Shown here piece after piece: positions 3,955 through 63,847 of a stretch of 63,847 bases of DNA. Where the stretch lies: NCBI GenBank assembly GCA_938010615.1, contig CALLUY010000025.1, positions 1 through 63,847 of the forward strand. Reading direction: 5' to 3'. The notes under the pieces are model-generated. The model did no database searches and was not told the origin of the DNA. It was given only the letters and a program-made list of their open reading frames with translations. The position numbers were made by a program, and so were the translations under genes. Origin of the DNA: an uncultured Pirellulaceae bacterium. Its GTDB lineage: Bacteria; Planctomycetota; Planctomycetia; Pirellulales; Pirellulaceae. Each line of letters opens with the position of its first letter. Position 1 is the stretch's first letter.

Positions 3955-3967
3955 CCGGGGAAGCAAT

Positions 3968-6900
3968 CTATCTTCTCAACCAGCTACCCATTCGTTGCAG
4001 GAACGACGGACCGCGGAGGAAGTTCGGCGGACAATCTTCGATTGGCAGCTCTTCGATTGGCAGCTCTTCGATAGGCAGCTCCTCGCACGCGTCGATTTCC
4101 ATCGCTGGATCGACAACGCACTCATCTGAAACCTCCATCACTTCGTCGCAAACTTCTTCCGAAACCGGCTCGCATCCGCAGTCACCTTCGATGACTTCTT
4201 CAACTGGAACCGTCTCTTCGCAACAAGGATCGATCGTTTCAACAACTTCACAGCACTCGCCATCGTCAGTCGCAGCGTCAATCGAATAGCCACCCGTTAC
4301 CGGTCGGCCACTTTCAAGCGTCAATGGATTCGCACTACTGGCGACTGGAATGCCGGAGTAGATCGGACCCGGTGCGGTCAAATATCTGCCGATCGAACTG
4401 CTTGCGATCGGTGACAAGCCTGGGAACCGCGGTGGATTGCCAGATGTACCGCTTTGAATCGGTGTGGTGAAGATCGTTGTATCGCCCCACGTTCCGGTGT
4501 CGCCTAGTGTACCCGGATTGCTAGAGTTCGGATCTGTTCCACCGTCGCTAAAGTCGGTTGCAACGAGCTGTTGTCCGTCGTCATCGAGGATTGGATCTCC
4601 ATTCTCATCGATGGCATCGCCCGAACCAATGACTTGGTTATGCAGTTCGTCCCCAGGTGCGTTCGGATTGACTTCAGCAACAAACTGCAAAGCAAACGAA
4701 TCGCCGACTTGCAATACGTTGGTCGCAGAAACATCCAGCATCTCGGTATTACTTCCTCCATTGAAGCTGGAATTCAAAGCGATGCTGCTTTGCGGGTCGC
4801 TTGGCTGTCCAATCAACACGAGGCTGCTGGCGTCGACGTAGGCGGCTCCAAATTGACCAGCAAGATCTTCAGTCAAAGTCAGGTTGGTCAAATCGACCGT
4901 ACCCGTGTTTTCGACAATCAGCAGGTAAGTGACCAAGTAATGTCCGTCGACAAGTTGAGGCTCGCCAACGATCGACTTGGCGATTCCAAGATCCGCAATG
5001 TAAATCGGAGTTGGATCGTTGCCGAAGATTCCGTCCGGCGTCTGTTCGCCGTTTTCGCCATTGGCATCAACACCATTGTCGCTCACGTCAATCGCGGTAA
5101 GGGGATCGCCAGATGAGTCGACCAAAGTTTGACCGTTGCCATCGATTCCATCACCTTCGGCAGTCGCTTGGTTATCCAGAGCAGCACTGGTACCGCTGGC
5201 GTCCGGGTCGATCGTTACCGTGTAGCTAATTTCGAAGGAATCTCCGATATTGACCTGACCGCCAGAGATCAAGGTTTGGCTAGTGTCACTTTCCCATCCT
5301 GTGTTGGCCGTCGGCAGCGTTCCTGTTCCAGAGAAGTTCCCGACTGTCAGGTCTTTCACGTCGACTGCCGAAGTACCAAATTGGGCCGCGATGTCATCGA
5401 ACAGAGTCAAGTTGTTGAGATCAACGGTTCCATTGTTCTCGTAGACCAAGGTGAATGTCACGTCCCAGTTCTGGCCGTTGGCGACTGCACCACCAGAGCT
5501 CTTTGCGAGCCCAATACTTGGGATCAACAGAGGCGTCGGATCGTTGGACGTTCCGTTGTCGCCTTGATCATTCGGATTGCTCGAATTCGGATCGGTACCT
5601 GAATCAGAATCATCATTGGCGGTAATCGGAGTGCCATTGGAGTCGTTGATCGGATCTCCGTTGTCATCAACGGCATCGCCTCCGACGACGACCTGATTGT
5701 TCATCGGGGTTGAAGTTCCGCTAACATCAGGATCGACTTCGACGGTAAACTGAACCATAAATGCATCGCCAATGGCCAGCAACGTTACTGCTGCCTGGTC
5801 GATCATTTCGGTTGATCCACTTCCGTCCCATGCCGAATTGATGGCAATGTTGCTTGCCGCGTCCGATGGTCCTGCGGTTAGCGTTAAGCCACCGGCACTG
5901 ACGAGTTGATTCCCGAATTGAGCTGCGAGGTCTTCGATCAAAGTTAAACTTGCAAGATCAACGGTGCCGGTGTTTTCGATCAGCAGTTCGTAAGTCACGC
6001 TGAAGTTGCCGTTGCTCAAAACCGACGGAGTTCCACTGACTGCTTTCACCACGCTGATGTCAGCAATGAATATCGGAGTCGGATCCGCATCCGTTCCGTG
6101 GTCTCCGTTTTCGCCCGGGTTGGTGCCTTGAGGATTGGCTCCATCATCTGAAACATCGTCCGCCGTTAATGGATCGCCACTATCATCAAGCAGCGGATTG
6201 CCCATACTGTCAACTGCATCGCCGTTGACGGTGGCTTGGTTTTCCAGAGCCTGCGACACGTTGTCGATTCCATCCGGATCGATTGTCACGGTGAATGTGA
6301 CTTCAAAGCGATCTCCCGGATCAAGGTTGCCACCAGTAATCATGGACAGAGTCGTATCGCCAAGCCATCCAGGATTGTTTGTCGGAGCTGTTCCTGAGCC
6401 AACAAAGTTTTGAACCGTCAGACCACTCACGTCGAGATACGCATTGCCGAATTGAGAAGCAATGTCATCGAACAGCGTCAGGTTGTTCAAGTTGACCGAG
6501 CCCGTATTTTCGACAACCAGCGTGAATGGAACGTCCCAGTCTTCGCCGTTGGCAACTGCATCACCAGCCCGTTTGACGATCGCAATTTCAGGAACGATCG
6601 CATCGATCGGTTCGTCGGTGTCGATACCCGTTCCGTCGTCCGCACCGCTCTGATCGTTCACCGTGATGACCGAACCATCGTAGTTCGTTCCTTCGCCGGA
6701 GATCGTTGCTGTATTCTGCAGATAGTCCGAATCTTCATCGATCAAGTCTGGATCAACCACGATGTCAAACGTAATCGTAAAGTCGTCTCCCGCGACAAGC
6801 ACCTCGCCTGTTTCGGCTGAATCGAACATGTCCAGCGAAGTATCACTGGCCCACGCCGCGTTGATCAGTGAAGCCGGCGTGTAGCTTCCTGGCATCGTCG

Positions 6901-9900
6901 ATCCAACGGAGATCGTCGGAGTCGAAGCTGAGAGATAGGCGGCTCCAAATTGTGCCGCGATGTCTTCACTCAGACTCAGATTGTTCAGGTTAACGGTACC
7001 ATTGTTCTCCACACGAAGCGTGACTGAGATCGTTGAAGTGCCGTCCGCGTTACTAACGGAATCAGAGTGCGTCTTGTAGATCCGAATCTGAGGAACCTCG
7101 AATGGAGTCGGATTGTCTGTTCCAGTTTCTCCATTGTCAGTGTTCGGGTTGAGACCATTGTCAGAGTCATCGTTGACTGGCCCTTGATCGGAATCAGCTG
7201 AACCTTGTACTTGGTTCTGAGCCATGCCATCGAGTGCGTCGCCGTCTCGCATCTCGTCCGCATCAACACGGATCGTGAATGAGACCACGATTTGTTCACC
7301 GACTTGCAAGGCTCCGCTGGTTCCGTCGAAGAGACCCGTTTGGCTTCCGCCGCCCAAGAATCCTGCGTTAAGATTTGGAAGATCGCCCGCATTTGCCAAC
7401 GTATGGCTTACGATCGCGGGTCCAGTAACGAGTCCACTGCGATCAACGACACCGCTTAGCAAAGACGCATCGTAGGCGTCGCCGAAGGTTGACGTTGTCG
7501 TCAGATCGTCGAGCAACTGAAGATTCGTAAGCTCGATCGTTCCAGTGTTCTCAATGACAACAAGGTACTGAACGTCAAACGAACCGGTCAGCTCATTGCC
7601 CGCACCATCGGTCGCCGCGACCACCGTGTTGGCTTGCTTACCGACGCTGAGATCAGGCAGCAACAATGGTGTTGGATCATTGGTTCCGCCGGTGTCTCCG
7701 TCGGCGCCGCTATTGGAATTCGATGGCTCTGTGCCGCTGTCGGAATCATCCGTCGCAGTGATCGGATCACCGTTTGAGTTCGTGATTGGGTTACCAAGGC
7801 TGTCGACAGCTTCGCCCCCTGTGCTGACTTGGTTGTCGAGCGGACCGGAAGTTCCAGTCGCATCAGGATCGATTTCAACTGTGAATTGAACGACATAGGA
7901 ATCGCCGACCATCAGAGCCGTCGACGCATTCTGGTCGATCATCTCTGCGTTGCTTCCGCCGTTCCAGTTCGCTGAGTCAAGCACGACATTGCTGCCGGCG
8001 AGCCCAGGACCTGAAATCAGAGTCAGACTTCCTGCGTTGATATAGGCTGGTCCAAATTGAGAGCTGAGATCATCCAACAACGAGAGGTTGATCAGATCAA
8101 CTGCTCCAGTGTTCTCAACGACTAACTGGTAGGTAACCTCCCAGTTGTCGTTCGCCAACTGAACTGGAGTGCCGAATACTTCTTTCGCAACAGCAATGTC
8201 GGCGATTAGAACTGGCGTTGGATCGTTGCCGTAGACTCCATCGTTGTTGCCGTCTTCTCCGTTTTCGTCGTTCGGGTTCGTACCGTTATCGCTGTCGTCT
8301 GAGGCTTGTAGCGTGCCGCCGCTTCCGTCGTCGAGTGGGTTGCCGTTTTCGTCCAGGCCGTCGCCGGTAATCGTGCCTTGGTTCTCAAGGGATTGGGAAA
8401 CGCTGTCGATGCCGTCCGGATCGATTGTGACCGTGAACTCTACTTCAAACGTGTCGCCGACGTTCAGCTGACCCGTTCCATCGAGCATGTTGAGCATCGT
8501 GTCTGATTGCCAGCCAAGGTTGGCTCCTGGAGCCGTACCCGTTCCAACAAAGTTTCCAACCGACAATCCGCTGGCCGACACAAACGCAGAACCAAACTCG
8601 GTTGCAATGTCGTCGATAAGGTTCAGATTGTTTAGGTCAACGGTTCCAGTGTTCTCGACAACGAATGTGAAAGTCACATCCCAGTCTTCACCGTTTGGCG
8701 ATGCGTCGCCAGCTTCTTTCGCCAAACCGATCGATGGAATGTAGATAGGAGTCGGATCGTCGCTCGTACCGTGATCGCCGAGGTCACCAGAGTTGTCTGA
8801 TGACGGGTCAGTTCCGCTATCCGAATCATCGGTAGCTGTGATCGGCGTGCCGTTCGAATCGTTGATTGGATCGCCATTCTCATCAACCGCATCACCTGTA
8901 GCGGTGACCTGATTTTCGAGAGGACCAGTCGCCGTACCGCCCGCGTCAGGATCGATCTCAACTTTGAATTGGATCACAAACGAATCACCAACAACCAATA
9001 GTGAAGGCGTCGCATCAACCATTTCGGTAACGCTGCCTCCGTCCCAATTGCTCGTATCAAGTGTAACGCTGCTGTTGGCTGACGGCCCTGTCGTGATCAC
9101 CAAATCGTAAGCGTCAACGTACTGAATACCGAACTGAGTCGCGATGTCTTCCGCCAAACTCAAGTTCGCAAGATCAACGGTTCCTGTATTTTCGATAACC
9201 AATTCGTAAACTGCTTCGAAGTTACCGTTGGAAAGCAACGTTGGATTTCCAATAACGGCTTTCGCAACAGAGACATCCGCAATGATGATCGGTGTTGGAT
9301 CGTTTCCAAAAACGCCATCGCCATCATCTTCGCCGTTTTCATCGGAGGCTGATGTTCCATTGTCACTGTCATCGCTGGCAATGACCGGATCACCATTGTC
9401 GTCAAGCAAAGGATCGCCGTTTTCATCCAGACCTTCACCCGAAGTCGTCGCTTGGTTATCGAGACTTTGCGAAACGCTATCGATTCCATCCGGATCGATC
9501 GTAATCGTGAAGACAACCTCGAACGTGTCGCCGGCATTGGCGGTGCCGCCTGAAATCATTGACTGTGTCGTATCGGCCATCCACGCAGCGTTAATCGTCG
9601 GAGGAGTCCCTGTTCCGCTGTAGTTCTGAATCGCCAGACCGCTCGCCGAAACGTACGCATCGCCAAACTCTGCCGCGATGTTGTCGAACATTGTCAAGTT
9701 CGTCAGATCAACGTTGCCCGTGTTCTCCCAGACAAGCGTGAACGTCACGTCCCAATTGTCGCCGTTGGCAACCGCATCGGAAGCTTCTTTCGCCAGACCA
9801 ACATGTGGAATGTAAGTCGGTGTCGGATCATCGCTGGTTCCCATATCGCCGGGCTCGCCCGAGTTCGTATCACCCGTCGTGGCACCCGAATCCGAATCAT

Positions 9901-12900
9901 CGCTGGCCGTGATCTCATCTCCGTTATCATCAAGGTACGGATTACCATCGTCGTCAACGCTCGTACCTTCCACGATCGCCTGGTTCTCAAGGATTCCGGA
10001 AGCCGCAACCGCATCGACCTCAACAGTAAACTGAATCGTAAACTGATCGCCAATCGCCAGTGAGTTACTGACGCCTTGGTCAAGAATATCCGTGGCTCCG
10101 GTTCCGTCCCAATTGGTCGGATCAAGCGTGATACTGCTGAACGCATCCGAAGTTCCTGTCACCAGCGTCAAACCGCTGACGCCTTGGAACACAGACGCAC
10201 CGAACTGCGTTTCGATATCGTCGACCAGCGTCATATCCGTCAAGTCAACTGTACCGATGTTCTCAACGACCAGTTGATAGGTGACTTCAAAGTTCCCGTT
10301 GGAAAGAATCAAAGGCTGACCCACGACTTCCTTGGCAACGCTAACATCCGCGATGATGATTGGAGTCGGATCGTTCGCAAACGTTCCGTCACCGTCGTCT
10401 TCACCATTCTCGCCGTTCGGATCGACTCCGCTATCGCTGTCGTCAGTGACCGTAAGATCTGGATCTGGCAAACCAGTGTCCGGGTGAATTCCTACACCGG
10501 TTGCCGTACCCTGATTTTCAAGACCCTGGGACACGCTATCGATTCCGTCCGGATCGATCGTGATCGTGAACACAACTTCAAACGAGTCACCAATGTTGGC
10601 TTGCCCCGTTCCGTCGAGCATATCCAGCGTCGTATCGCCTTCCCAAGCCGCGTTAGCTCCCGGCGCCGTTCCAGTTCCAACAAAGTTCTGAACCGTCAGC
10701 CCGCTTGCCGAAACAAACGCGTTGCCGAACTCAGCTTCGATATCATCCACCAACGAAAGGGTCGCAAGATCAACGGTTCCTGTGTTCTCATACAAGAACG
10801 TGAAAGTAATATCCCAATTGTCGCCGTTGGCAACTGCATCAGCGGCCGACTTCGCCAAACCAATATCAGGGATCAACAACGGCGTTGGATCGTCGCTGGT
10901 TCCCATATCACCGTCTTCACCAGCGTTGGTTCCGTTCGGATCAGCTCCACTGTCCGAATCATCCGTGACAACGATTGGGTTGCCGCTGGAGTCTTCAATC
11001 GGATCTCCGTTCTCATCAACAGCATCTCCGCCGACGACGACTTGGTTATCCAGAGCACCTGGTGCTCCAACCGCATCCGGATCAACTTCGACCGTAAACG
11101 TAACCGCAAACTCATCGCCAACGGCAAGCGTCGTCGTGGCGATCTGGTTGATCATCTCAGTTGATGCAGTGCCGTCCCAGTTCGAATCAAGAACAACATT
11201 GCTTCCCGCATCGCTTGGCGGCATCGAAAGCAAAATGTTTCCAGCGCTAACAAACGCCGTTCCAAAATGAGCACTCAAATCTTCAACCAGTGTCAAGTTC
11301 GCGAGGTCAACGTTGCCCGTGTTCTCGATCACCAACTGATAGTCAACGCTGTAGTTGCCGTTGGACAACAGCGTCGGCGTACCAGAGACTTCTTTGACAA
11401 CGCGGATGTCCGGGATGATGACGGGAGTCGGATCGTTGCCGAACACTCCGTCCATATCGTCTTCGCCATTCTCGGCTGTCGGATCGACGCCATCGTCGCT
11501 CACATCAGTAACCGTGATCGGATCGCCGCTTCCATCAAGTAGTGGACTTCCGGTTTCGTCGAGTCCTGTTCCGGTTGACGTCGCCTGATTCTCCAGGCCT
11601 GCCGATGAAGTTCCAGACGCATCCGGATCGATCGTGACCGTAAACACAATCTCAAAAGTATCGTCGACTTCCAACGCTCCCGCCGAAGTAATCGCCGAGA
11701 CCGTCGTGTCGGTTTCCCAAGCCGCATTGGCTGTCGGAGCCGTTCCTGTCCCAACAAAGTTCTGCACCATCAAGCTTCCAGGCACGATGCCCACAAATTG
11801 GCCGCCGAACTGAGCCGCCACGTCATCAATCAAGTCAACGTTATCGAGCGCAACGGTTCCCGTGTTCTCCCAAACGAGCGTGAAGGTCACGTCGAAGTTA
11901 TCACCATTGGCAACCGCATCGCCGGCATCTTTCGCCAAGCCGATGCTCGGAATGTAAACCGGAGTCGGATCGTCGGTCGTGCTGTGATCGCCGAGGTCGC
12001 TTGCGTTGTCCGTCGAAGGATCGCTTCCGCTGTCTGAATCATCGGTGGCCGTGACCGGATCGCCGTTGGAGTCATTGATCACATCTCCGTTCTCGTCGAC
12101 CGCATCTCCGCTGGCCGTCACGATGTTCTCCAGCACGCCCGAAGCCAGAACTGCATCGATCTCGACGCTGAATTGGATCACAAACGAATCGCCAACGGCA
12201 AGCAATGATGGCAGAGCCGTGTTGACCAGTTCGATGTTCGAATCGCCATTCCAATTCGCCAAGTCAAGCACAACGCTGCTGCTCGGATCCGCCGGAGCCG
12301 TCACCATCGTCAAGCCGTAAGCATCAACAAACGGTGCTCCGAACTGAGTCGCGATATCTTCGGCAAGAGTCAGGTTCGCCAAGTCGACGGTGCCGACATT
12401 CTCAACCACCAGCTGATAGGTCGCTTCGAAGTTACCGTTGGCCAGCAGAGTCGGCTGCCCAACAACCTGCTTCGCCGCTGAGACATCCGCAATGATGATC
12501 GGCGTCGGATCGTTGTTGGCAATTCCATCACCACCATCGTCTCCGTTTTCGCCGTGGACATCCGTTCCGTCATCGCTATCGTCAGAGGTCGTGATCGGAT
12601 CGCCGCTCGCGTCCGTCATCGCGGTGCCGTCTGGGTTGACGCCATTGCCACTGATTTCGGCTTGGTTCTCAAGCGCCTGTGAAACGCTATCGAGCCCATC
12701 CGGATCGATCGTGACTGTAAAGACGACTTCGAATGAATCGCCAACATTCAGCGATCCGGTTCCGTCGAGCATGTCCGCCATCGTGTTGCCGTTCCAGGCT
12801 GCATTGGCTCCCGGAGCAACACCCATTCCGGCAAAGTTCTGAACCGTCAAACCGCTCGCCGAAACGAATGCGTTTCCGAACTGAGCCGCGACATCGTCAG

Positions 12901-15900
12901 CCAGCGACAGCGTATCGAGCGTCACCGTACCAATGTTCTCGATCGTCAGTGTGAAGCTCACGTCCCAGTCGTCGCCGTTGGCAACCGCATCGCCGGCTTG
13001 CTTAGCAATTCCAACGTCCGGAATCAGCAATGGAGTCGGATCGTCACTTGTTCCGTGATCGCCTTGAGCCGTCGGGTTGGTGCCGTTTGGATCTGTTCCA
13101 TCATCGGACAGGTCACTAACTTCGATCGGATCGCCGTTCGCATCAAGGATCAGATCGCCGTTGGAATCAACTGCGTCACCACCAGCAACCACTTGGTTTT
13201 CATAAGGCTGCGGCGGAGCACCAATGGCATCCGGATCAACTTCAACTGTAAATGTCACCGTGAACGAATCGCCAACGGCCAGCAGAGTCACTGCTGTTTG
13301 GTTAATCATCTCCGTTGTGCCGTCGCCGTCCCAGTTCGCCGTATCGAGCACAACATTGCTGTTTGCGTTTGACGGAGCGGTGGCCAGCGTCAAGTTGCCC
13401 GCACTTTCAAACACAGAACCGAAGTGAGCCGTGAGATCTTCAATCAGCGTCAGATCAGCCAGATCCACGTTGCCCGTGTTCTCGATGATCAACTCATAGG
13501 TCACATCAAAGTTTCCGTTCGGAAGTTCGGTTGGGTTGCCAGAGACAGCTTTAACGACTCGGATATCCGGGATAATAATTGGCGTCGGATCGTTTCCGAA
13601 TGTGCCATCACCATCATTGGTTCCGTTTTCATCAGTTGGATCAACTCCATCGTCGCTATCGTCGGTGACTGTGATCGGGTCGCCACTGTCATCCGTTAAC
13701 GCATCGCCGTTTTCATCAAGAGCTTCGCCAGTTGATGTAGCTTGGTTATCAAGTCCTGTCGACGAAGTTCCGCCAGCATCGGGATCAATCGTGACCGTGA
13801 AGAAGACTTCAAACGTGTCGCCAACTTCAAGCGGTCCAGTGCTGTTGATCAAGGATAGCGTTGTATCGCCTTCCCAAGTCGCATTGGCGGTCGGAGCAGA
13901 TCCAGATCCGACAAAGTTCTGAACCGACAAGCTTCCCGAAACGACTTCGACGAACTGATTTCCGAACTGAGCCGCGATGTCGTCCATCAAGTCAACGTTG
14001 TCGAGTGCAACGTTTCCAGTGTTCTCCCAAACCAGCGAGAAGGTAACATCGAAGTCGTCGCCATTGGCAACCGCATCGCCGGCATCTTTCGCCAAACCGA
14101 TATCAGGAATGTAGAGCGGTGTCGGATCGTCACCTCCGCCAGTGTCTCCCGGTTCGCCAGCATTGTCATCGCCTGTTGTTGCGCCTGAGTCCGAATCGTC
14201 GCTCGCAGTGATGTCGTCGCCATTGGAGTCGGTGTAGACATCTCCGTTTTCGTCGACGCCAGTTCCACCGACCATCGCCTGGTTGTCGAGGACTCCAGTC
14301 GCAGCTCCAGCATTAACTTCAACTGTGAATTGAATCGTAAAGATGTCACCGATTGCTAGGTCATTCGAAACGGCTTGATCCAACATATCTGTTGCGCCAG
14401 TTCCGTCCCAGTTCGCCGCGTCCAGTGAGATGCTGCTTCCTGGATCCGTCGGACCTGTGATCATTGTTAGCCCACTCACGCTTTGGAACACAGAAGCTCC
14501 AAACTGAGTTTGCAAGTCATCGACAAGTGTCATGTCGGCCAGATCAACGGTACCGATGTTCTCGATCACCAACTGATACGTGACGGCAAAGTTACCGTTG
14601 GACAGAATCGAAGGCTGACCAACAACTTCTTTGGCGATACTAACGTCCGCGATGATGATTGGCGTCGGATCGGCATCAGTACCTTCGTCGCCATTTTCGC
14701 CTGGGTTGGTTCCTTGCGGATTCGTTCCATCGTCAGAAACATCATCGGCTGTCATTTGATCGCCGTTTTCATCCAACAGCGGATTGCCCATGTCATCAAC
14801 GGCGTCACCGTTAACGGTTGCTTCGTTGTCCAAAGCCTGAGAAACGCTGTCGAGTCCATCCGGATCGATGGTCACTGTGAACGTCACTTCGAAGCGATCA
14901 CCCGGAACCAGATCACCGCCGTTGATCAACGTCAGAGACGTATCGCCAGCCCAGCCGCTGTTGGCAGTGGGAACTGTTCCCGAACCAACGAAGTTCTGAA
15001 CCGTCAAGCCACTGGTGCTCACGTATCCGTTTCCGAATTGCGAAGCAATGTCATCGAACAGGGTTAGATTATTCAGGTTCACTGAGCCAGTGTTCTCAAC
15101 CACAAGCGTGAATGGAACATCCCAGTCATCGCCGTTGGCGACTGCATCGCCAGCCTGTTTGACGATCGCGATTTCTGGAACGATCGCAGGAGTTGGTTCG
15201 TCTGAATCGATACCTGATCCATCATCGGCACCACTATCGTCAGTGACTTCGATTGTTGTACCGTCGAAGTTCTGACCATCGCCAGAGACGGTCGCTGTGT
15301 TTGCAAGATAGTCTGAATCGTCGTCCAAAAGGTCCGGATCAACGATCACTTCGAATTCAATCGTGAACTCATCGCCAGCTTTAAGGAGCTCACTGTTGAT
15401 GCTCGAATCAAACACGTCCAATGAAGTGTCTGCATTCCAGGATCCATTGATCAAGTTTGCCGGGACAGTGCTGGATGCATTATTTGGCGGAACAGAGATC
15501 ACAGGATTGGTTGCCGAAATGAAGGCCGCCCCGAACTGCGTCTCCAGATCTTCGGTCAAGCTAAGATTGTTAAGATCGACCGTACCACTATTTTCAATTC
15601 TGAGTTGAACGGTGATCGTCGAAGTTCCATCTCCGTTGTCAACTCGATCGGAATGCGATTTCCAAAGGCGAATCTGCGGAACCTGGAAAGGTGTTGGGTC
15701 GTTCGTTCCACCGCTACCGTTGTCGTCGTTCGGATTAAGTCCATCATCGGAGTCATCTGAAACCGGACCCTGAGGCGAATCAGCAGATCCCTGAATTTGG
15801 TTCTGAGCCAATCCATCCGTTGCATCACCATCCAAAAGTTCGTCAGCATCGATGCGGATCGTGAACGAGATCACAATCTGCTCACCGGTTTGCAATGCCC

Positions 15901-18900
15901 CACTTGTTCCGTCGAACAGATTCGTGTCAGCACCGCCACCAAGGAAGCCAGCGTTAAGGTTTGGCAGATCTCCAGCGTTGGCCATTGTGTGACTCACAAT
16001 GGCAGGTCCCGTAACGAGTCCACTTCGATCCGTCGGACCAGCCAACACCGTTGGATCGTACGCGTCACCAAAGGTCGAGATCGTCGTCAAATCATCAAGC
16101 AACTGCAGGTTCGTCAATTCAACGGTACCTGTGTTCTCAACGACAACAAGGTACTGAACATCAAAGACGCCAGTCAACTCGTTGCCCGCTCCATCAGTCG
16201 CGATGACAACTGTGTTGGCTTGTTTTCCAACACCCATTGCTGGCAATAGCAGCGGAGTCGGATCATCGCTTCCGCCAGTGTCGCCATCGCCACTACTATT
16301 GGTGGTTGAAGGATCGGCTCCGCTATCTGAATCGTCATCAACGACAATCGGATCGCCATTAGAATCTGTGATTGGATCGCCGTTGGAATCAACCGCGTCG
16401 CCAGCCACAGTGGCTTGGTTGTTCATCGGACCAGACGTTCCGGTTGCATCTGGATCGACTTCAACATCGAACTGAATGACAAACGAATCGCCAACGATCA
16501 GAGATGAAGCCAAAACCTGGTTGATCATTTCAACAGAGGTGTCACCATCCCAATTGGCTGAATCAAGGACGATGCCGCTTCCGGCAGCTGATGGTCCTGC
16601 AATCAGAGTCAAGTTTCCTGCGTTAACGAACGCGTTGCCGAATTGGTTGGCCATATCGTCGACCAACGTCAAGTCAGCCAGATCAACCGTGCCAGTGTTT
16701 TCAATCACCAGTTGGTAGGTGACGGAGAAGTTGTCGTTTGCCAATTGAACCGGCGTGCCAACAACTTCTTTGGCGACCGAGATATCTGCGATGACGATTG
16801 GCGTCGGATCATTGCCGAACGTTCCGTCGCCATCATCTTCACCGTTTTCGCCATTCGGATCGGTTCCGTTATCGCTGTCATCATTGGCCTGAAGCGTTCC
16901 GCCGCTGCCATCATCGATCGGATCGCCGTTCTCATCCAATGCGACGCCAGTGATTGTTCCCTGGTTCTCGAGGTTCTGGGATACAGAGTCGATTCCATCA
17001 GGATCGATCGTGACGGTGAAGACAACTTCGAATGAATCGCCCACGTTCAACTGACCCGTTCCATCGAGCATGTTCAACGTCGTGTCTGATTCCCATGTAG
17101 CGTTTGCTCCAGGGGCGGTTCCTGATCCGACAAAGTTCTGAACCGTCAGTCCGCTTGCCGAAACCCAAGCATTGCCAAACTCAGCTGCAATATCGTCTTC
17201 CAGATCCAAATTATTCAGATCGACGGTTCCGGTATTTTCAACCACAAACGTAAACGTCACGTCGAAGTTATCACCATTGGCAACCGCATCGCCAGCCTGC
17301 TTCGCCAACCCTATCGCCGGAATGTAAACCGGAGTTGGATCGTCTGTCGTTCCGTGATCGCCAGGAGAGCCCGCATTGTCTGTTGAAGGATCCGTGCCAT
17401 CGTCTGACAAATCAGAAGCCAGAATTGGATCTCCATTGCTGTCAGTGTATGGAGTACCCGAGTCATCAACACCTGTTCCTCCAGCAGTGACCTGATTCTC
17501 AAGCGGTGCTGACGCAGTGCCGCCAGCGTCCGGATCGATCTCAACAGAGAACTGAACGACGAACGAATCGCCGATCGCCAAGTTTGCCGCAAGGGCCGTG
17601 TTCACCATTTCGGAAACGCCATCTCCATCCCAGTTAGCTGAATCCAGAGTGATTGAGCTGCCCGGATCGGTTGGGCCCGTGATCATGGAAAGCCCATATG
17701 CATCTACAAACTGAGTTCCAAACTGAGCCGCGATGTCATCGTCGAGTGAGAAGTTAGCAAGATCAACCGTTCCAGTGTTCTCAATCACCAACTGGTAAGT
17801 TGCCTCGAAGTTTCCGTTGGCAAGCTGCGTTGGCTGAGCAACAACCTGTTTCGCGACTGCCACGTCAGCAATGATGATTGGAGTCGGATCGTTTCCAAAC
17901 GTTCCATCGCCATTGTCTTCACCGTTCTCTCCGTTGACCTCGGTTCCGTCATCGGACTCGTCGGAAACCATCACTGGATTCCCGCTTCCATCTAGAATCG
18001 GATCGCCATTTTCATCCAACGCATCGCCACCAGCAACCGCAGTGTTGTCGAGCGCTTGAGAGATACTGTCGAGACCATCAGGGTCAATCGTTACAATAAA
18101 CACAACCTCAAAAGAGTCGCCCACATCCGCAGTTCCAGCTGTCATCACGCTCAGCATGTTAAGCGTCGTATCGGACTCCCAGGCTGCGTTTGCGGTAGGT
18201 GGAACTCCAGTTCCGACGAAATTTTGCACCGCCACGCCATTTACCGAAACGAACGCGTTGCCGAATTGTGCAGCGATATCATCGTACAACGTTAAATTGT
18301 ACAGATCAGCGTTTCCAGTGTTCTCATAAAACAAAGTGAACTCAACATCCCAGTTGTCGCCGTTGGCAACTGCATCGCCGGCATCTTTGGCGAGACTCAC
18401 TTCAGGAATCACCAGTGGCGTCGGATCATTTTGTCCGCCACTGTTGCCCGGATCGCCACTGTTTTCATCATCCGGATCTCCGCCACTGTCGCTTTCGTCG
18501 GTTACGGTAATTGGATTGCCGTTGGAATCGTTGATCGGGTTGCCCATGTCGTCAACCGCGTCACCGCTTCCGTCGATCTGGTTGGTGATCACGTTATTGG
18601 CGTTGCCGGAATCGTAGATGTGATCGATCGTCCAGTTGTCGTTTCCGCTTGTTTCGAACTCGATGTCGATGTGCGTGTAGACTTGACTTCCAGTTCCCTG
18701 GATACCGATGAACCGAGCAAAGTTAGACGGCAAATCACCATCGGTTCGCTCGTCATGCTCGAACAGAACCGTTCCATCGCTGGCGGTCGCTTTAAAGTAA
18801 GTCCACTGACCCGCAGGGGCTCCACCAGCTGGATCAAACACGTCGGACCAAACGAAACCAATCGCGTTGCCAGGGTTAGGAACGGTAATCCGAAGGTTGG

Positions 18901-21900
18901 CCGATCCGCCATCGCTTTGTCGAATCGCGAACACACCAGGATCAGGTGCACCACCACTGAAGGAATTTTCATCGACTCGGGTTTCAGCGCCTGTTCCAAC
19001 TGAAGAAACGATCGTGCCGCTGATTTCAACTCCGCCGAGGTTAGAGACAAATGGCCCCAAGCTGAGGTCGACCGGAGTGTTCCCAACGATGTCCGTAAAG
19101 TCTTCCCGCAGAGTCGCTTTAGTTGCCGACGCAAACGCAGCTTCGCTTGTGTACACGATCGGAGCGGTGGCTGTAGGAAGTGACGATGCGTCGACTTCTA
19201 CCGTAAAGGTAATCGTGAACGAGTCACCGATCGCCAAGAGCGATGCGGCTCCGGAGTCTACCATTTCAGACAGGGCCGTCGTTCCGTCCCAGCTACTTTC
19301 AAGCGTGACGGTTGACGATGGATCCGATGGTGCAGTTCCGATCGAAAGTCCAGTCGCGTTTTGGAATCCGGCTCCGAACTGAGCCTGAAGATCTTCGATC
19401 AAACTCAGGTTTGCCAGATCAACGCTTCCGGTGTTTTCGACCACAACCGAGTAGTCGATCGCGTGGTTGCCGTTGGATAGAAGCGTCGGTCCGCCGACGA
19501 TCGCTTTGGTGATGTCGAGGTCCGCGATGAACAATGGAGTCGGATCGTCGGTTCCGCCGGTATCACCAGGTTCGCCAGCGTTGTTTGTGTTTGGATTAGT
19601 TCCGCTATCGGAATCGTCAGTCACAACGATTGGATCGCCGGACCCATCGGTAATCGGCGAGCCATCCGGGTTGGCAGCATCGCCAGTCGTGACGGCCGTA
19701 TTCTCAAACGGAACAATGGCTCCGGCTCCGTTTGGATCAAGCTCGACGGTGACACCAACTGTGTATGAATCTCCCGGAGCCAACAATCCTGATGTTCCAT
19801 CGAGCAAATTCGCATCGGCATTGCCGTCGTAAGCCACGTTGCGATTCGGAGCAACACTGCTCGGATCCGTCGGAAGAACATTGACGACAGGCGGAGCAAC
19901 AATTTGCACAAAGACATTGGCGCCAAACTCCGCCGCGAAGTCTTCGACGACTTGCAGATTGCTGAGGTAAGTCGTTCCAATATTTTCGACAACAAACTGA
20001 TACTGAACCACGAAGTTGCCGTTAGCGATTTGAACAGGATCACCAACAATACTTTTCGCAATCGCCACATCCGGCAGAAGAAGTGGAGTTGGATCGTCGC
20101 TTCCGCCGCTGTCGCCGTTTTCACCCGGGTTGTTTGTCTCTGGATCTGAACCGGTGTCCGACAGATCATCGACAACAACTGGATCGCCATTTGAATCAGT
20201 TAACGGCAGACCGTTCTCGTCAACCGCGTCACCCGAAACGGTGGCTTGATTATTTAGAGCCTGAGACGTACCGGTAGCATCGGGATCAACTTCAACGGTG
20301 AACTGAACAATGAAGAACTCGCCGCCTGCAAGAATATTGGTCTGAGTTTGATTGACCATTTCAGTGACAACGTCACCATCCCAATTGGCTGAATCCAGTG
20401 TGATCGGATTGCCAGCCGGCTGAGTGATCATCGTCAATCCTCCGGCGCCGACAAAGGCCGCGCCGAACTGTGCGTCCAGATCGTCTTCCAAAGAGATGTC
20501 CAGGGAAGCGTTTCCTGTGTTCTCGACAACCAACTGATAGGTTACCTCGAAGTTGCCGCTCGCTGTTGGGACCGGAGTGCCAACAACTTCCTTCGCGATT
20601 GAAACATCAGCGATGAACAGCGTGTTTGGATCGTCCGCGTTGTTGTCGCCATTTGGATCGACATCGTCCGAGTTGTTTGGATCATCCGACGCGTCAGTGT
20701 AAGTCGTGCCGTCGTGGTTACCAGAAACCGTTGCTTGGTTGACGAGATTGTTGTTGGCATCGAAGTTGGCACCAACCGCGTTCGGATCAACTTCGAATAC
20801 GATTCGAATCGTAACCGACTGACCCATCGCAATCAGGTTGATGTTGGAACCTGAATTATCGAACACTTCTGCGTCAGAAATTCCACCATCGTAGCTTGCG
20901 TTTATCTCTGGAGGATTCGTCATGCTTGACGACTGAATCGTGGCTTGAATTCCACTTTGCGGAACGATGGCAACGAAAGCCGTTCCATACTGAGCCAAAA
21001 CATCTTCCTGCAACGACAACATATCCATCGGAGCATTGCCGAAGTTGGAAATCGTGAAGTCATAAGTTACATCGAAGTTGCCTTGAGTTCCGCTGGACGC
21101 TGCCACTGGATCACCGACAAGCGTCTTAGTCAAGTCAATGACAGGAATCGCCCAAGTTGTTGGATCGTCCGGATCATTGTCGGCATCGTTGTCGCTATTC
21201 GTCGAGTCGTTTGGATCGTCACTTTCGTCGTCCGTCACGATGCCCGAAGTCGTACCAACACCGGTCACGGCCGCTTGGTTGACCAGCATGCCGCTAGTGT
21301 AAAGCGCAGTGGCATTGTCGGGATCAACTTCGACAACGATCTGGATTCTGATTGTCTGACCCATTGCCAGTTCGTTGGTAGTCGAGCTGTCAATGAGCTC
21401 AGCGTCCGACGCCCCGCCGTCAAAGTTCGGATTAATTTCCACCGGATCGGTGGCGTCGCTAAACGTGACGACCGCCGGAGCTGTACCTTGAGGCACGATG
21501 CCTTGGAACGCACCGCCATATTGAGTCAGCAAATCTTCAAGCAACGAGATATCTTCCAGCGCTTCGTTTCCACTGTTGGTAATCACGAATTCAAACGTGA
21601 CGTCCATGTTTCCAGTTGCTCCGCTGGAAGCAGGAACCGGCGTACCAACAATGGCCTTCGTCAGCTCGATGTTCGGGAACAACAACGAAGTTGGATCATC
21701 CGGATCAGAGTCGTCGCCGTATTCGGCATCGGTTGGATCGGTCGGATCATCGGAGGTATCGGCGACTGGAATTCCGTTGTACGGATCTTCGGCAGTAACG
21801 GAAGCCTGATTTTCGAGACTTCCGTCGCCGTCGACGGTAATTCCGTCGTAAATCGCACCTGGAGCATCAGGATCAATCTCAACCGTGATCTCGAAAGTAA

Positions 21901-24900
21901 CTTTCTGTCCTGCTTCAAGCAAGTTTTCATTTGGCGCAGTTATCTGGAAGTTACTGACATTGATCTGGGTATCGGTTCCGCCAGATCGCCAATCAGCCAA
22001 CACGAGGGCTCGAATAGAATGGGTGCCAGGGCGCCAAAGATTCTGGCCTCCACCGGCATTGGAAATGAATCCGCCACCAATGTCCGCCGAGTAAGTCCCT
22101 CCCGTTTCGTCGATATGCGCGTTGCTAAGAAGTGAGTACTGATATGTTCCGCCACTTGTCGCGTTGCGAACTGCATCGCCAGCAGCCAACGCCGGACCAG
22201 CCCAAGGATTGGTCAGCGTGATCGTGTTACCGGAAATGGCTCCCGGGTCCCAGCCGTTTGCAAGAAAATTTCGCGTGTAGTCATAGTCAGCATAGGTGAA
22301 CCCGGTGCTGTCAGTGTAACCGTACCAGGCGATCGCTCGCTGAAAGCCTGCTCCAGCATTTTGCCATCCGGTCGCATCTGCGAGTGTGATGGTCGTGTCG
22401 CCAGGATTCAACGGTGCGGCGAGCGTAGTATCGACTGCACCTGAATGCTTGGCGTAGTTGTATAAGCCAATCAATCTGCCATCGATATCGTAAGATGCGA
22501 ATCCGAGGAACGTGCCCGATGCTGGATCATAGTTTCCTCCCGCACCGTCGCCTGCAAAAGCATCTGCCGTCAACGTGTAAGTTTGATTTGGATCAATAAC
22601 GTAGAATTGATCTCCAAAATAAGACACATTGTCAATGGTTGTGCTGGTCGGATTGCCGCCAAACGTCCAAGGAGTGACCGTCGGAGTATTGTTGAAGATG
22701 TCCGTATCAGTCGAGCCATCGTAGTCGGTGTTGAAGTCCGGTGAATCCGTTGCCGTGGTCATCGTGACTCTTGGCCCATTGACGATGCCTTGGAAGGCTC
22801 CGCCAAGATTGGCAATGAAGTCTTCGATCATCGAAATGTTATTGAGGTCTGTCGTTCCTGTGTTTTCGATCATGAACTCGTAAGTCACATCGAAGTTGCC
22901 GTTGACCCCGCTGCTTGCTGGAACTGGCGAACCAACAATCTGCTTCGTCAAGTCAATCGAAGGAAGAATCAATGGCGTTGGATCGTCCGTGCCACCCATT
23001 CCATCGTCACCGCGGGCGCCCGGATTGTCGGAATCCGGATCGCTTCCGTCATCTGAAAGGTCGGTCGTTGGAGTTCCACCTGGACCGCCAGTTATACCAC
23101 CGGCTTCAACTTGATTCACAGTGCCAGAAGGATTCGGCAACAAGGCAGGATCGACATGCACCGTGTAAGTGATCGTAATACTGTCCGTTGGAAGCAAGTA
23201 TCCGTCGGCGTTAAGGACTGCCGTATCTCCGGCTCCGTTGTACGATCCGTTGATCGTCGGAGACGTACCTCCCGCCGAGATACTTGAAGACGTGATCACT
23301 GGAGCATTAACGATCCCCTGGAATCCAGGGCCGAAAGCACCAACCAAATCTTCCGTCAGCGTGATTTGCGCCAAATCAAAGATACTGGTGTTCATGACTT
23401 CGACTTCGTACGTCACCTCGAACAAGTCAGGGTTCGTTGTGCTTCGAACCGCATTGGTCTGTTGTTTCGCGGCTGAGATTTCAGTGACGAAGTTCGCTTC
23501 TGCATCGTCCGTGTCGTCGACAGTTTCTCCAAACTGGTCGGTTGCCTCGACATCTGCTGAGTTGACATAGTTGCCAGAATCGTTCACATCGAGTTGATAA
23601 ATCAAGTACGCTGTGTCGCCAGCAGTCAAATCAAAAGTCCACGTGGCCGGGAATCCCGAGAAGTCACCGCCAGAGGCAACCGTCGTTCCGGCAACAAACG
23701 TGGCTCCTGCCGGCAGACTATCAGTGACCGTGGCGCCAAGGAAATCTGCCGTACCTGTATTGGTGACTTTCAAACGGAAGTAGGCTTTATCCGTATCGTC
23801 GAAGTTTACCGTTTCACCCCAATGCGCGTCGTTGGTTGGATCGATGTTAACATGCGTCTCATCGAGTGCGACTTCTTTTTCAATTTCGATATCGGGAGCT
23901 ACAACGACTGCAGTCACCGCGGCGCTTGTTACCGGTAATGGCAAAGCCCCTGGATCAGTTCTGGCTGCAAACTTGTTCGTGTAATGGTCTGAAGGAATAC
24001 CAACATTGCCGTCGGGTGTCAGCTCAAGGAAGAATTTGGTCGATTCGCCTGGATCGAGATAAGGATCGATCGCTTTATCGCTAACCACGCGGATCGCAGT
24101 AACTTGATCAACCGTCGGTGCACCGGCTACACCAGCCTGAACGTCAGCCAACGTGTATGTCCAGATCCCTGTTCCTTCGGCCACAAACCACGCATCACCA
24201 GCGGCGGCGGTGCCCGGGTCTGCGTAGCCGTCCACGGTTCCATCAGCCGCATCCAAAGTCGATGCAAGTGTTGAAGTCACGTAGACCTCCAACCCTGGAT
24301 CCAAACCCGTTACATCGATAAATGAGTAGGAGCCATTGATGCTGGAGCCTTCAAAGTCGGCGTCGTAGGGTAGGACGTCGACAAGATCAAACCAAGGAAC
24401 CTCCTTGTCGTCGGAAACGTTTGCGATCCCAAGTTCATAAATGATTGTTGTATCTTCGGGCACAAGTGGCGTAACCACAAATTTGCCAGCCGACATCGCA
24501 GCGACCTGTACGGCAACAAGACCAGCCGATGAATTTCGAAACTCCTCGGTCGAATCATCCGAAGGCGATGACGCGACGGCGGTGTTGGTCCATGATTCGC
24601 CGTTCTTCGCATCGAACGGAATCAAGACATCAAATGTCATGGTTGGTAGAGCTGTGTTTAGCGGGACGTCGCCGTAGTACCAGCGAATTCCAGATGCCCC
24701 GTAAGTCCAAGTTGTACTCCAGCTCGTTCCGTCCCAGTACTCAACGGATTGGACCGTTTGAGTGGAACCGTCGCCGGCCACGTAAGAAAAACCTGCAGCA
24801 GGAGTTGCTGAACCGCCAACAACGGTCAGACCTGCCGGCAGTAAGTCGGTAATGTAAACATCCTGAGCAGGTGAGCCATCGTCTGGTCCTGGAATCGTCA

Positions 24901-27640
24901 CGGTTCCTTCCAGTTGAATGGTTGCTGCTGAACCTGCAAGGTAATTATTGCCGGCTCCCAGATCGATTACCGTTTTATCAACGTCAACGTTGGCATCGAC
25001 AATCCAAAGTCGGTCACCACGGTCAACGTCCCCTGCGACTCCACCAGAATAGAAGCTGTTCGTTAGCGGGTCATACTCAGATCCCCGCCAATCGTCATCT
25101 GGATTCGCGTTGTCGCGAAGGAAGCCAACCGACGACGCGTTGAAGTTGGCGATGATGTTCCCGCCAGGGTTGATCCCAAGGTCCAAAGTTGAATGACCAA
25201 CCGTTTCCATACTCACCAGACCAATTACGTTCTCGCCGGGTTCCAAATCACGCAGCATCGTGATTCGCCATTTCGAGATGGAATCACGGACACCATCGGC
25301 GTAGGCGTTGCCGCCCAGATTGACATCGGTTGGATCAGCGCTCCAGTAGCCGCCAATGGATTGGTCATCTGCCAATGTCGCGTCGCCCATCGAATCCCAG
25401 TCGGTCCAGCCCGCCGGATCAGCGTCAACGCCTCCTGTACCAAACTCAATGATGTAGTCGACACCATAGGTTAAGTGTGAACCGCTAAACGGTCCGCCCG
25501 ACGAATAAGCTCGAGACCATCCGTCTCCCGATTCTGATGGAAGGCTGTTGGCGACAATTTTGGTGGCTGAATTGTCAAACTTGTCCCCAAAAATTACGCC
25601 CGGTAGCGTCAGCACGCCTTGGTTTCTTCCACTCGAAACACGAGCGTCATAGATGTGGCCCACGGACGTCTCTGCGTCGCCGGAACTAAACTGTGTTGCC
25701 GTACTAACCCAGCGTCCAGATGTTGGATGGCCAGCTTCTGAGTTGTGTTTCGTAGATCCGCCTAACGAGAACGAACGAATCGTGTGAGTTCTCTCGTTGT
25801 TGGAGGTGTCTTCGGTTGCCCCGTCCCCAAAGTTGTTGGTGATCCCAAACGCATCATCAGGATCGAAGTTTGTTAACTTCGGCGTGACAGCCAGCAGATT
25901 GTCATCGGCTGTACCAACGATCCCATCTTCACCGGGCAGGATGTCATCGATCGGAATCCAGACATGAACCATCGAGGATGTAAACCAAAAATCCGAAGCC
26001 GGGATGACGCGATTAGCCGCTGTCCGTCCTGGAAAATACGAACCTGTTGTGTCAGCGCCAGAGACTTCCGCACTAAAGACGGTGCCTGTTGAACCCGTTA
26101 TGTTCCAGTCACCACTGTCTGGGGTCGATCGCTCCTCACTCCAAACGGCGCTTGGCCCTTCATTGAGTTGACCGCTGGGACGGGAGCTGTTTGACCACGC
26201 CGTTTCATCGTTTCCTGCAACATTGACGAATCGTTCATAATTCCTTGTCAGTCCATCATCAGCGTTGTCCGAAGCGGCACCAAGGGAAGGTCCCCACGTG
26301 AATACCTGCGAGTTTGGGGTGACATCAGTCAAGTCAATATCAAACGTGAAATTGTCTTCGATCGGAGCCGACCCTTTGACCCCATCAGAACCTGTTCGAG
26401 TTGGGTGTGCCCCAAAGATTCCAATTCCGTAACTGTAGACGACTCCGTCGACGGTCCCAGACGCATCGGTGTATACCCCGCGAAATGTTGGAGCGAGTAG
26501 TTCAATGTCCATATTCGCCGCCGACGACAGGACGAAATCAAAGTCTTCAGTGACCAACGAGGTCGCGTTTTCGTTTGAATGGACTTCGAATTGGACATCA
26601 TTCAATGGGGTTCCCTGAGCGCCACCAAGAGCTCGAGCTTCAAACGTAACGCTGGAAGTAAACGTTCCCGCAACATCCGGTAGGTACGCCGTAATCGTCC
26701 GGCCATCAGCACTAATGTTGGATCGTGAATCAAGCGCTGCTGCCGCTGGCAAATTGTCAAAAACGAGACCGTCGGGTAGCGTCGAAGTAAAATGCAGATC
26801 GGTCGCGCCAGCGGCATCGGTGTTGTAGAACACTTCCATGACAATCGTGTCATGTGTTCGAATAATCCCATTGGAACCGTCCGTGTCATTGCCGGCATTG
26901 TTGTCCGTGTCCCAGACCGGTGTTCCATCAGAAACGATACTCAATGTGGCATCCGCTAATGCCAAAGTTCCCGTGTACTGATAAGCCGCCAGAGTCTGAG
27001 CCGTTACGATGCCGCTGGTAAACTCCAGATCCCAGTCGCCGCCTTGATCAGCCGCACCTGTGATGTCATCCGACGCCGCAACATCGGCACCGGTCACAGC
27101 ACTGATTGACTCGATCAACGATTTGCCGTCCGCAGTGCTCGCCAAATCGCAACCGTAAAACAGAAGGTCAGCTTCCTCGGTCAGAGCGGAAGACCAACTG
27201 CTCAATTCATCTGCGTAGTTGGACAGGTTGTCGTATTGCAACGTTGTGTTGCCCAAGTGGACTTGTCCGTCGTCGCCATGGGAGATGATATGAATGGCGT
27301 CATATTTGGTTTCTGCTTGTGACAGAATCTCTGTGATCTGTTGAATGCCATCCTGCCCACCATCAAGCACTCTGATTTCAAATGTGCGATCTGAACGCGA
27401 CTCCAATATCTCCGACAACAAAGCGTCGCTGTCTTCGACGCCGGGATCGACAAAGATCAACTCAACTTGTTGCCCAGAATCCGCAATGTCCGCGTCCTGA
27501 ACTTGAGCCGGAGCTGGATTCCCACTGTCCGTTTGTGGAATAAAGAATTGAGCGTCAGGAACACCGTCGAAAAGAACTCGTTCTTCCAACGACTCAAAAA
27601 GGGAACGGTGGGAAGGAGAATTCTGAGAATCTTGACTCAT
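3968..27640 (-). CDS. Giant secreted DUF4347/DUF11-repeat protein
   Basis: This is a single open frame of 7,890 residues from the ATG at 27640, preceded by AGGAAA; the frame also extends 13 codons upstream without a ribosome site. Order of parts: a planctomycete N-terminal signal region ([14 protein letters not shown], residues 13-26); DUF4347 (about 58-215); about 1,200 residues of varied beta-rich surface domains; about 33 DUF11-like units of roughly 180 residues, each with a [12 protein letters not shown] core and ending in DDPTPxxIxD; and a tail with ten cysteines, three LPIEE repeats and a basic end. It is very acidic, with Asp and Gly rich linkers. Known relatives are giant adhesin-like surface proteins of planctomycetes and other bacteria. 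An extracellular structural or adhesive role is inferred. No anchoring motif such as PEP-CTERM is visible. The full-length open frame across many near-repeats suggests selection to keep it intact. Confidence 0.92.
4036..4080 (-). repeat. Three 15-bp repeats encoding LPIEE
   Basis: Copies at 4036-4050, 4051-4065 and 4066-4080 differ at one base (CTTCGATTGGCAGCT, then ATAGG in the third). They encode three copies of the pentapeptide IEELP near the C-terminus of the giant protein, between its last two cysteines. Replication slippage is the likely origin. Confidence 0.9.
18590..19165 (-). other. Inserted beta-rich domain in the DUF11 array
   Basis: Between the [11 protein letters not shown] end of one DUF11 unit core and its [14 protein letters not shown] continuation lie about 190 residues unlike the repeats. 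They begin [21 protein letters not shown], include [14 protein letters not shown], and contain [12 protein letters not shown] and [10 protein letters not shown]. The FxxAT..REDFTD start and the aromatic strands resemble the extracellular domain found in many PEP-CTERM proteins. The name is by resemblance only. Confidence 0.6.
22000..22750 (-). other. Second inserted domain in the DUF11 array
   Basis: Within the second DUF11 unit from the N-terminal side, about 250 extra residues are inserted after a [10 protein letters not shown] segment and before [15 protein letters not shown]. They contain [27 protein letters not shown] and [13 protein letters not shown], and are rich in Gly, Tyr and Trp. 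I do not recognise the family; a carbohydrate- or surface-binding beta sandwich is plausible. Confidence 0.5.
26996..27469 (-). other. DUF4347 domain of the giant protein
   Basis: Residues about 58-215 of the giant protein show the DUF4347 pattern: [12 protein letters not shown], then [16 protein letters not shown], then [14 protein letters not shown], then [14 protein letters not shown] and GGDWDLE. This domain is typically near the N-terminus of very long adhesins and cadherin-like proteins. His121 followed by Gly, and Cys164, resemble in position the dyad of clan CD cysteine peptidases. That similarity is my inference. Cys164 is the only cysteine I noticed outside the C-terminal tail. Confidence 0.85.
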
Positions 27641-28275
27641 AGTATTTCCTGATTTGGCTAGGTAGACCTGATGCCACAATCCGGGTGGGATGATGGATTG
27701 CGAATAACTTGTAGGGTCGATCTACGAAGGAAAATATTTTTGCGCAGCGCGTCGATCATCTAATCGTCAAGCATTTGGTTGACTACCTCACAAACTCCAA
27801 GCTGCACATTGATACAGTCAGGCTAACCGTATCGAATTGGAAACTTGAGCAAGAGTTACCCCATCGAATGAACTGCCAGACCAAGTTTCTCGAAACGGTT
27901 AGGTCGATTAGGCAGCAATTGACTTGCACTTGACTGACCCGCTAGCAGTTCGAACTATTTTCGACATCGCGCGCTCGTCGCATCGTCAGCCGAATTTTTG
28001 GCGCCTGTTTTGGAGTCCCAAAGGAACGAATTGAATCGTTGTGTGAAAACGAAACTTGCCGAGTCTTCGCATCGGAAATTCGAAGCGTTGAACGAACAAG
28101 TCTGTCGAGCCGATGGATATTCGGCGCGGTGGTGCGAACCGAAGGATGCACGACTCGTCGATTTGCCAAAGCACAAACTTTGGTCGCACCAATTGAAGAT
28201 GGCTACTTTGAAATTTAGCCCAGCGGATGACCGCCAGAGAATCGAAAAAAAAGAAACGAAAAAAAAGAGACGAAA
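27641..28275. promoter_or_regulatory. Intergenic region upstream of the giant gene
   Basis: About 635 bp separate the giant gene start from the terminator of tRNA-Asp. No open frame here has a ribosome site or family features. It must hold the giant gene promoter on the minus strand. I see no clear -35/-10 pair. The last 55 bases before the terminator are A-rich on the + strand and form the T-tract of that terminator. Confidence 0.5.
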
Positions 28276-46296: not shown

Positions 46297-46542
46297 TTAC
46301 TTCTTGCGCTTGGCTTTTTTCTTCTTCTTGGCCGTTTTCTTCTTCTTAGCTACCTTCTTCTTTTTCTTTGTAGCTTTCTTCTTCTTGGCCTTTTTCTTCT
46401 TCTTGGCTACCTTCTTCTTTTTCTTTGTAGCCTTCTTCTTTTTCTTAGTAGCCTTCTTCTTAGCTACCTTCTTCTTTTTCTTTCCTTTTTTAGGTGAAGC
46501 TTTTTTCTTCTTGCTTACCTTCTTCTTTTTTTTCTTGGCCAC
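46297..46542 (-). CDS. Extremely lysine-rich, histone H1-like protein
   Basis: This encodes 81 residues from a GTG start at 46542, set by a perfect AGGAGG 7 bases upstream. Fifty-six residues are Lys; the rest are mostly Ala, Thr and Val in the pattern ATKKKKKVAKKK. It resembles the C-terminal tail of histone H1 and bacterial H1-like nucleoid proteins, without any globular domain. Binding of DNA or RNA by charge is inferred. The strong ribosome site and own terminator argue that it is expressed. It has a very long, unusual upstream region. Confidence 0.85.
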   Translation of the reverse strand: MAKKKKKKVSKKKKASPKKGKKKKKVAKKKATKKKKKATKKKKKVAKKKKKAKKKKATKKKKKVAKKKKTAKKKKKAKRKK

Positions 46543-63640: not shown

Positions 63641-63847
63641 TTGGCTCCTGACGTCTTTGTTTTCTTCAATTTGGCTCCTGACGCCTTTGTTTTCTCTGGC
63701 TCCTGACGCCTTTGTTTTCTCTGGCTCCTGACGCCTTTGTTTTCTCTTGACGCCTTTGTTTTCTCTTGACGCCTTTGTTTTCTCTTGACGCCTTTGTTTT
63801 CTCTTGACGCCTTTGTTTTCTCTTGACGCCTTTGTTTTCTCTGACGC
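63641..63847. repeat. Minisatellite with shortening period, cut by window edge
   Basis: Copies of GACGCCTTTGTTTTCTC begin at 63650, 63680, 63705, 63730, 63749, 63768, 63787, 63806, 63825 and 63843. The step is 30, then 25 twice, then 19 five times, then 18. The longer units carry a leading TTGGCTCCT or TGGCTCCT that the shorter ones have lost. The array continues beyond the window. Confidence 0.95.

Follow-up and report, generated by a model that had tools for sequence, protein, structure and literature searches.

The 63,847-nucleotide stretch of contig CALLUY010000025.1 analysed here (the window; assembly GCA_938010615.1 of an uncultured Pirellulaceae bacterium, G000 in the comparisons below) contains a bacterial giant gene, a single open frame of 7903 codons whose product includes a tandem array of 32 DUF11-type units (Table 1). 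The question raised by this locus is how two parts of the array, sixteen units apart and both containing a rare unit type, came to resemble one another. A first-pass annotation of the sequence attributed the resemblance to the duplication, inside this gene, of an ancestral block of sixteen units which then diverged. The block that recurs in register is five to seven units long rather than sixteen, and comparison with related genomes suggests that its second copy may well be a diverged block that came in by recombination from another, diverged giant gene, the array then being a mosaic.

The units (numbered 0-31 from the N terminus, with the labels J, A, B, C, D, E, F and G for unit types being our own) are mostly 161-189 residues long and fall into two alternating classes, mean identity being 37% between adjacent units and 46% between next-but-one units. 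The count of 32 holds throughout except for a first cutting, in which a chance motif match split unit 0 and gave 33. Given the two-class alternation, even offsets provide the fair comparison; nine of the ten mutual best pairs in the window lie at even offsets, the exception being units 1/2 (identity 0.50). Units 3-14 compared with units 19-30 (offset 16) have a mean identity of 0.647, as opposed to 0.466-0.536 at the nine other even offsets from 2 to 20. Among 20000 shuffles, performed within the odd and even classes and on units 3-30 only, the offset-16 mean was reached in none and the best-even-offset value in 21, and a run of five consecutive mutual best pairs never occurred, the longest shuffled run being four (12 shuffles). 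The excess over offsets 2, 4, 6 and 8, on which the first-pass annotation had staked its proposal, is thus present, and its spans for the C and D units agree with the borders recovered here to within a few bases. The border offset of approximately 8.58 kb that it reported is likewise borne out, with both borders of units 9-13 and units 25-29 differing by exactly 8586 bases. The equal unit lengths that it noted in the copies constitute weak evidence, because the offset is just as exact for units 13 and 29, which are only 56% identical in amino acids. Of the marker peptides used to pair the flanking units, [18 protein letters not shown] and DDGSGGTLQ each occur exactly twice, but VDAY is present in three units (7, 17 and 23), so that the VDAY pair is unspecific.

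Mutual best partners at offset 16 are limited to units 8-12 with units 24-28, five of the sixteen possible pairs. A sixth pair, 7/23, is ambiguous, as unit 17 is the best partner of unit 7 and unit 23 the second best, both at 0.69 when rounded. The other pairings are 13/21, 14/18, 15/19 and 17/23, while unit 16 has unit 20 as its best partner; units 13-17 hence pair at offsets of 8, 4, 4, 4 and 6, and units 13, 14 and 15 do not pair with units 29, 30 and 31. For each of units 13-22, the ten that separate the copies, the closest partner lies at an offset other than 16, and the array has only nine units left, counting from the first of copy 2. A tree of the window units alone, built on the first cutting with three of its 33 units omitted and with its own numbering (units 6/22 being U07/U23), places the C, D and E pairs as sisters with support of 100/100, the A pair with 89/70, the B pair with 89/82 and units 6/22 with 92/90; units 7 and 23 are not immediate sisters. 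In a higher-order repeat of sixteen units nearly all units would pair best at the block length, a pattern which this array does not have. The copies of a higher-order repeat would also be mutual closest relatives, which holds for A-E within the window alone but not when relatives are included. What stands of the original proposal is a multi-unit block in two diverged copies at offset 16; the block size of sixteen does not.

The rare C unit was searched for in 40 genomes (its own included), in 28 genomes of the genus and in 241 of the family. Strong matches were found in four of the 241 family genomes, own included, with one C unit each in G012 (uncultured Pirellulaceae, contig CAKZVF010000051.1), G015 (uncultured Pirellulaceae, contig CALFWR010000064.1) and G040, and the family genomes searched yielded none outside this genus. 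The region of residues 301-1100 is present in three of the 28 genus genomes (own, G012 and G040). According to rpoB, G040 is the nearest relative of G000 (95.2% identity over 587 residues), followed by G015 (86.3%), and G012 and G015 (90.3%) are closer to one another than either is to G040; the rpoB piece of G000 is its longest stop-free stretch of 587 residues, which the G012 sequence overlaps by only 91. The G000 rpoB match (G000:C2:16401-18041) carries one TAG, perhaps a base error of the draft, and gyrB was found in seven of seven genomes. With 69.5% identity to G040 and 72.0% to G012, the N-terminal 1.1 kb of the G000 giant gene does not lie closer to the nearest relative by rpoB. Despite differing block content, G000, G012 and G040 have 32 units each, and 15 are present in the array frame of G015, whose giant gene (G015:C64; L024, L015) has its DUF4347-like start in one frame and its array in another, through either a real break or an assembly error. 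The G000 and G040 arrays are collinear, with mean identities on the diagonal of 0.81 (units 0-13), 0.69 (units 14-21), 0.53 (units 22-29, the site of copy 2) and 0.80 (units 30-31), and since both number 32 units, copy 2 did not lengthen the array. Internal block repeats are also found in the relatives, in units 13-16/17-20 of G040 (offset 4) and units 7-10/21-24 of G012 (offset 14), the G040 units 15-16 repeating as units 19-20 at 91-92% protein identity.

In trees that include these relatives, copy 2 falls with the one block of G015 and the two copies in the window are no longer each other's closest relatives, which leaves an origin of both inside this gene unsupported. The B-E tree comprised five rows and the A-E test four, with G012 omitted as its A unit is not clearly orthologous; the trees are unrooted, the two sets overlap, and the clade of copy 1 and copy 2 was specified by the proposed duplication itself, the other tested groups being picked after the trees were seen. 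Copy 2 joins G015 in the B-E tree with 99/98 support (identity 0.78 over B-E), and the copy 1 plus copy 2 clade is rejected in the approximately unbiased test (p-AU 0.002). With A-E the corresponding values are 100/99 and p-AU 0.00088, and omission of the C unit, where the G040 branch is long, gives p-AU 0.00029. A clade of the G012 and G015 blocks is rejected as well (p-AU 0.00057) despite their closer rpoB. This conflict with rpoB, like that in the N-terminal 1.1 kb, is of the kind expected from exchange. In a tree of 106 units (five of 111, those of at least 250 residues, omitted), in which the bootstrap had not settled, units 22 (100/96), 27 (100/92), 25 (98/74) and 21 (98/41) on the copy 2 side group with G015, while in copy 1 units 7 (100/90) and 9 (80/81) group with G040 and unit 10 (94/80) with G012.

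The share of identical residues encoded by the same codon gives an indication of age. Over B-E it amounts to 0.478 between copy 1 and copy 2, 0.473 between copy 1 and G040 and 0.444 between copy 2 and G015, where random unit pairs share 0.412 and 0.383 is expected at saturation; seven flanking orthologs of G000 and G040 pooled share 0.518 (single genes 0.453-0.550). On these values the copies would have split about as long ago as the species G000 and G040, or earlier, and any import would be likewise old. The G040 units 15-16 and 19-20 have shares of 0.44 and 0.52 at their 91-92% protein identity, so that high protein likeness in these arrays is a sign of selection more than of recent origin. 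Recent homogenisation of the copies was considered and rejected, the longest exact run over units 6-12/22-28 being 24 bases and the same-codon shares lying near saturation.

In the history to which these comparisons point, the chain would have arisen as blocks of units were copied and exchanged, the two-class alternation being preserved. Copy 1 would be the resident block, at the positions which it occupies in the sister species G040, and copy 2 (units 23-28, perhaps from unit 21) a diverged version closest to that of G015. Its entry would have come about through homologous recombination, at units alike in two diverged giant genes, and would have displaced other units so long ago that synonymous sites are by now almost random. 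The number 16 would then represent the distance to the entry site, not the size of a duplicated block. A number of observations weigh against such an acquisition, which we regard as plausible. There is no sign of recent transfer, as the copy 2/G015 codon share lies close to the random and saturation values, and copy 1 with G040 has low support (54/29) in the B-E tree. The 106-unit tree pairs the E units of the two copies, weakly (92/47), and gives no supported placement of the copy 2 units A, C and J with G015; unit E also has the highest same-codon share among the offset-16 pairs (0.55), a signal which could derive from later conversion or from a true copy within the gene. The identity of unit 24 with G015 (0.75) is lower than that with G040 (0.82) or copy 1 (0.81), and unit 23, at 0.70-0.72 to four units, has no clear nearest relative. 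A single G015-like gene was available for comparison, and the unrooted trees fit import and an old duplication with losses alike.

An old duplication within the gene, preceding the separation of the four species, after which one version would have disappeared from G040 and G012 and the other from G015, and the intervening units would later have been gained and shuffled, is possible, if less probable than acquisition. The identical unrooted topology is expected from it, the arrays do gain blocks (as in G040 and G012), and a codon share between the copies below that of the pooled orthologs fits a split at least as old as that of G000 and G040. It requires, however, separate losses in three lineages with the arrays of the three full-length genes all coming out at 32 units, and the leaning of several units of 21-28 towards one species reads more easily as one event. 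The duplication of sixteen units put forward by the first-pass annotation appears very improbable. The offset-16 excess far beyond the shuffles, the five consecutive mutual best pairs, the exact border offset and the sister A-E pairs in the window-only tree speak for it; yet eleven of the sixteen pairs fail to be mutual best, units 13-15 have their partners at offsets of 8 and 4, too few units follow the start of copy 2, the clade of the copies is rejected once relatives are added, and G040, with copy 1 only, has an array of equal length that is collinear on both sides. One clean event of this kind is rejected by the p-AU tests and the pairing at other offsets. A tandem duplication of ten units via crossing-over between A-type units, with later inserts, was discarded as the copies form no clade and the array is no longer than that of G040. 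An assembly artefact, with the contig joining pieces of two co-occurring strains or species and copy 2 not truly in the gene, is unlikely: the draft comprises 221 contigs at 84% completeness, its rpoB match has the one TAG mentioned, and exact runs shared between units reach 35 bases, but units 30-31 after copy 2 are again G040-like (0.78 and 0.81), which would need two false joins, the frame is open throughout and no near-identical source gene is among those fetched. Least credible is convergence, in which units at matching places are alike through structural demands and not descent; with synonymous sites near saturation it is mostly protein likeness that is left, and the two-class alternation is itself a positional constraint, but the C, D and E pairs are fully supported sisters among the window units and the same three types occur in the same order in three other genes.

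Table 1. Features of the giant gene and its repeat array (positions in the window)
Feature	Position	Strand	Remarks
Giant gene	3968..27679	-	DUF4347 N-terminal part, 32 DUF11/DUF7507-type units and conserved Cys-rich C-terminal tail
N-terminal 1569 codons	22973..27679	-	DUF4347 at residues 74-230 of the piece, plus DUF11 match
Copy 1 of block	14660..17878	-	Units 7-12 (J A B C D E); array positions match those of the one block in G040
C-type unit 10 (copy 1)	15689..16252	-	
D-type unit (copy 1)	15188..15688	-	
Units 13-21, between copies	9818..14659	-	Closest partners at offsets 4, 6, 8 and 12, not 16
Units 21-22 (types F, G), adjoining copy 2	9290..10360	-	Join G015 units 08-09 in the 106-unit tree (unit 21 weakly)
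Copy 2 of block	6074..9289	-	Units 23-28 (J A B C D E); G015 is the tree partner of unit 25, of unit 27 and of the B-E concatenation
C-type unit 26 (copy 2)	7103..7666	-	
D-type unit (copy 2)	6602..7102	-	
C-terminal tail	3971..4471	-	GPIYSG region, Cys-rich end; alike in the G012, G015, G040, G004 and G014 genes

Aside from the array history, the domain content provides some indication of the nature of the giant protein. The DUF4347 match (PF14252) passes its curated cut-off (174.7 bits against 24.6), as do the matches of the array pieces to TIGR01451 (DUF11/B_ant_repeat; 96.4 and 140.9 bits, cut-off 24) and to PF24346 (DUF7507; 148.3 and 224.1 bits, cut-off 27), and a PF01345 match (43.8 bits, cut-off 24.6) is confined to the N-terminal piece. 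A sequence search of solved structures with a profile of 28 units gave a single match (E 0.79), and a model of B-C-D predicted from five sequences, with a predicted local distance difference test score (pLDDT) of 57, was not used for fold searches. The protein is probably an exported stalk or adhesin, judging from its domains, its predicted fold and the export genes adjoining the copies in relatives. Close to the C terminus, a 15-base tandem repeat (4035-4085) encodes PIEEL repeats. Beside the giant gene of G040 (L021:241-9311) are genes coding for a SecA-like protein, two HlyD-type proteins, an M50-HlyD protein and an OEP. In G015 (L024/L015) SecA-like, two HlyD-type and M50-HlyD genes are found, the stretch examined ending before any OEP, and in G009 (L065) OEP, SecA-like and two HlyD-type genes, the stretch ending before any M50. 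Such a neighbourhood suggests that a dedicated export module for the giant protein is likely in the relatives. Its kind is already known, as the available part of PMC4452313 describes a secondary SecA_DEAD/HlyD/Peptidase_M50/OEP module of Planctomycetes; unlike in G040, G015 and G009, where such genes adjoin the giant gene, all five are located in G000 on another contig, C213, away from it, and no giant gene was found among the C213 frames of 200-250 residues or more.

Of 15 genes of the window that were compared, every one upstream of the giant gene (12) is collinear with G040:C1:5855014-5875252, a stretch in which the other three, downstream of it, have no match. The giant gene of G040 is situated near 3356700-3379700, some 2.5 Mb from the collinear stretch, so that the gene has no single fixed location. 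Downstream of the giant gene in G040 are three transposase-like frames (L053:1206-2435, 3672-4556 and 10738-12120), named from their translations. The window gene at 2581-3954 had no match in four relatives, an outcome flagged as uninformative. Elsewhere in the window, CTT-rich tandem repeats (46309-46483) occur in the lowest-GC 2-kb stretch, and 25- and 19-base tandem repeats (63642-63847) reach the contig end, where they may have stopped the assembly. A search of the G000 genome for an exact 19-base pattern gave no match.

The growth of domain arrays by blocks, and giant adhesins with variable immunoglobulin-like (Ig-like) modules, are already known. In the sections available of PMC1553488 and PMC10665226, domain arrays are described as growing by the copying of several domains together, often in the middle of the array, with preferred block sizes visible in the identities. 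Multi-domain block growth is common to the titin and nebulin super-repeats treated there and to the array considered here; unlike in those super-repeats, one block of around six units recurs once, without a regular period, and its copies are rejected as sisters. Bap and Bap-like giant adhesins of Acinetobacter are reported in the accessible part of PMC4647330 to consist of Ig-like modules of 80-110 residues in variable composition, with locus exchange between species inferred. The protein described here is likewise giant, with putatively Ig-like modules, but by that description is set apart by its longer DUF11 units, its two classes and its planctomycete host. The same source gives identities mostly below 40% for neighbouring homologous domains, and the even-numbered pairing fits this idea because neighbours here average 37%. 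Other DUF11, DUF7507 and DUF4347 proteins share the domain matches, and this one is distinguished by an array of 32 units with the rare C type. In the open-licence literature, for part of which only the top matches were listed, no paper naming this gene family was found, and the part of PMC11573180 available, on huge proteins, contains nothing on it.

A strong autocorrelation peak in a single array may be taken, wrongly, for the duplication of a block of that length, and the answer changes once orthologs are included. A broader possibility, rather doubtful, is that the giant stalk genes of this genus swap whole blocks between species, in register and in even numbers, with the composition reshuffled, exactly 32 units kept and length under selection, copy 2 being one such block. 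If so, giant stalk proteins would represent a natural case of modular exchange at a fixed overall length.

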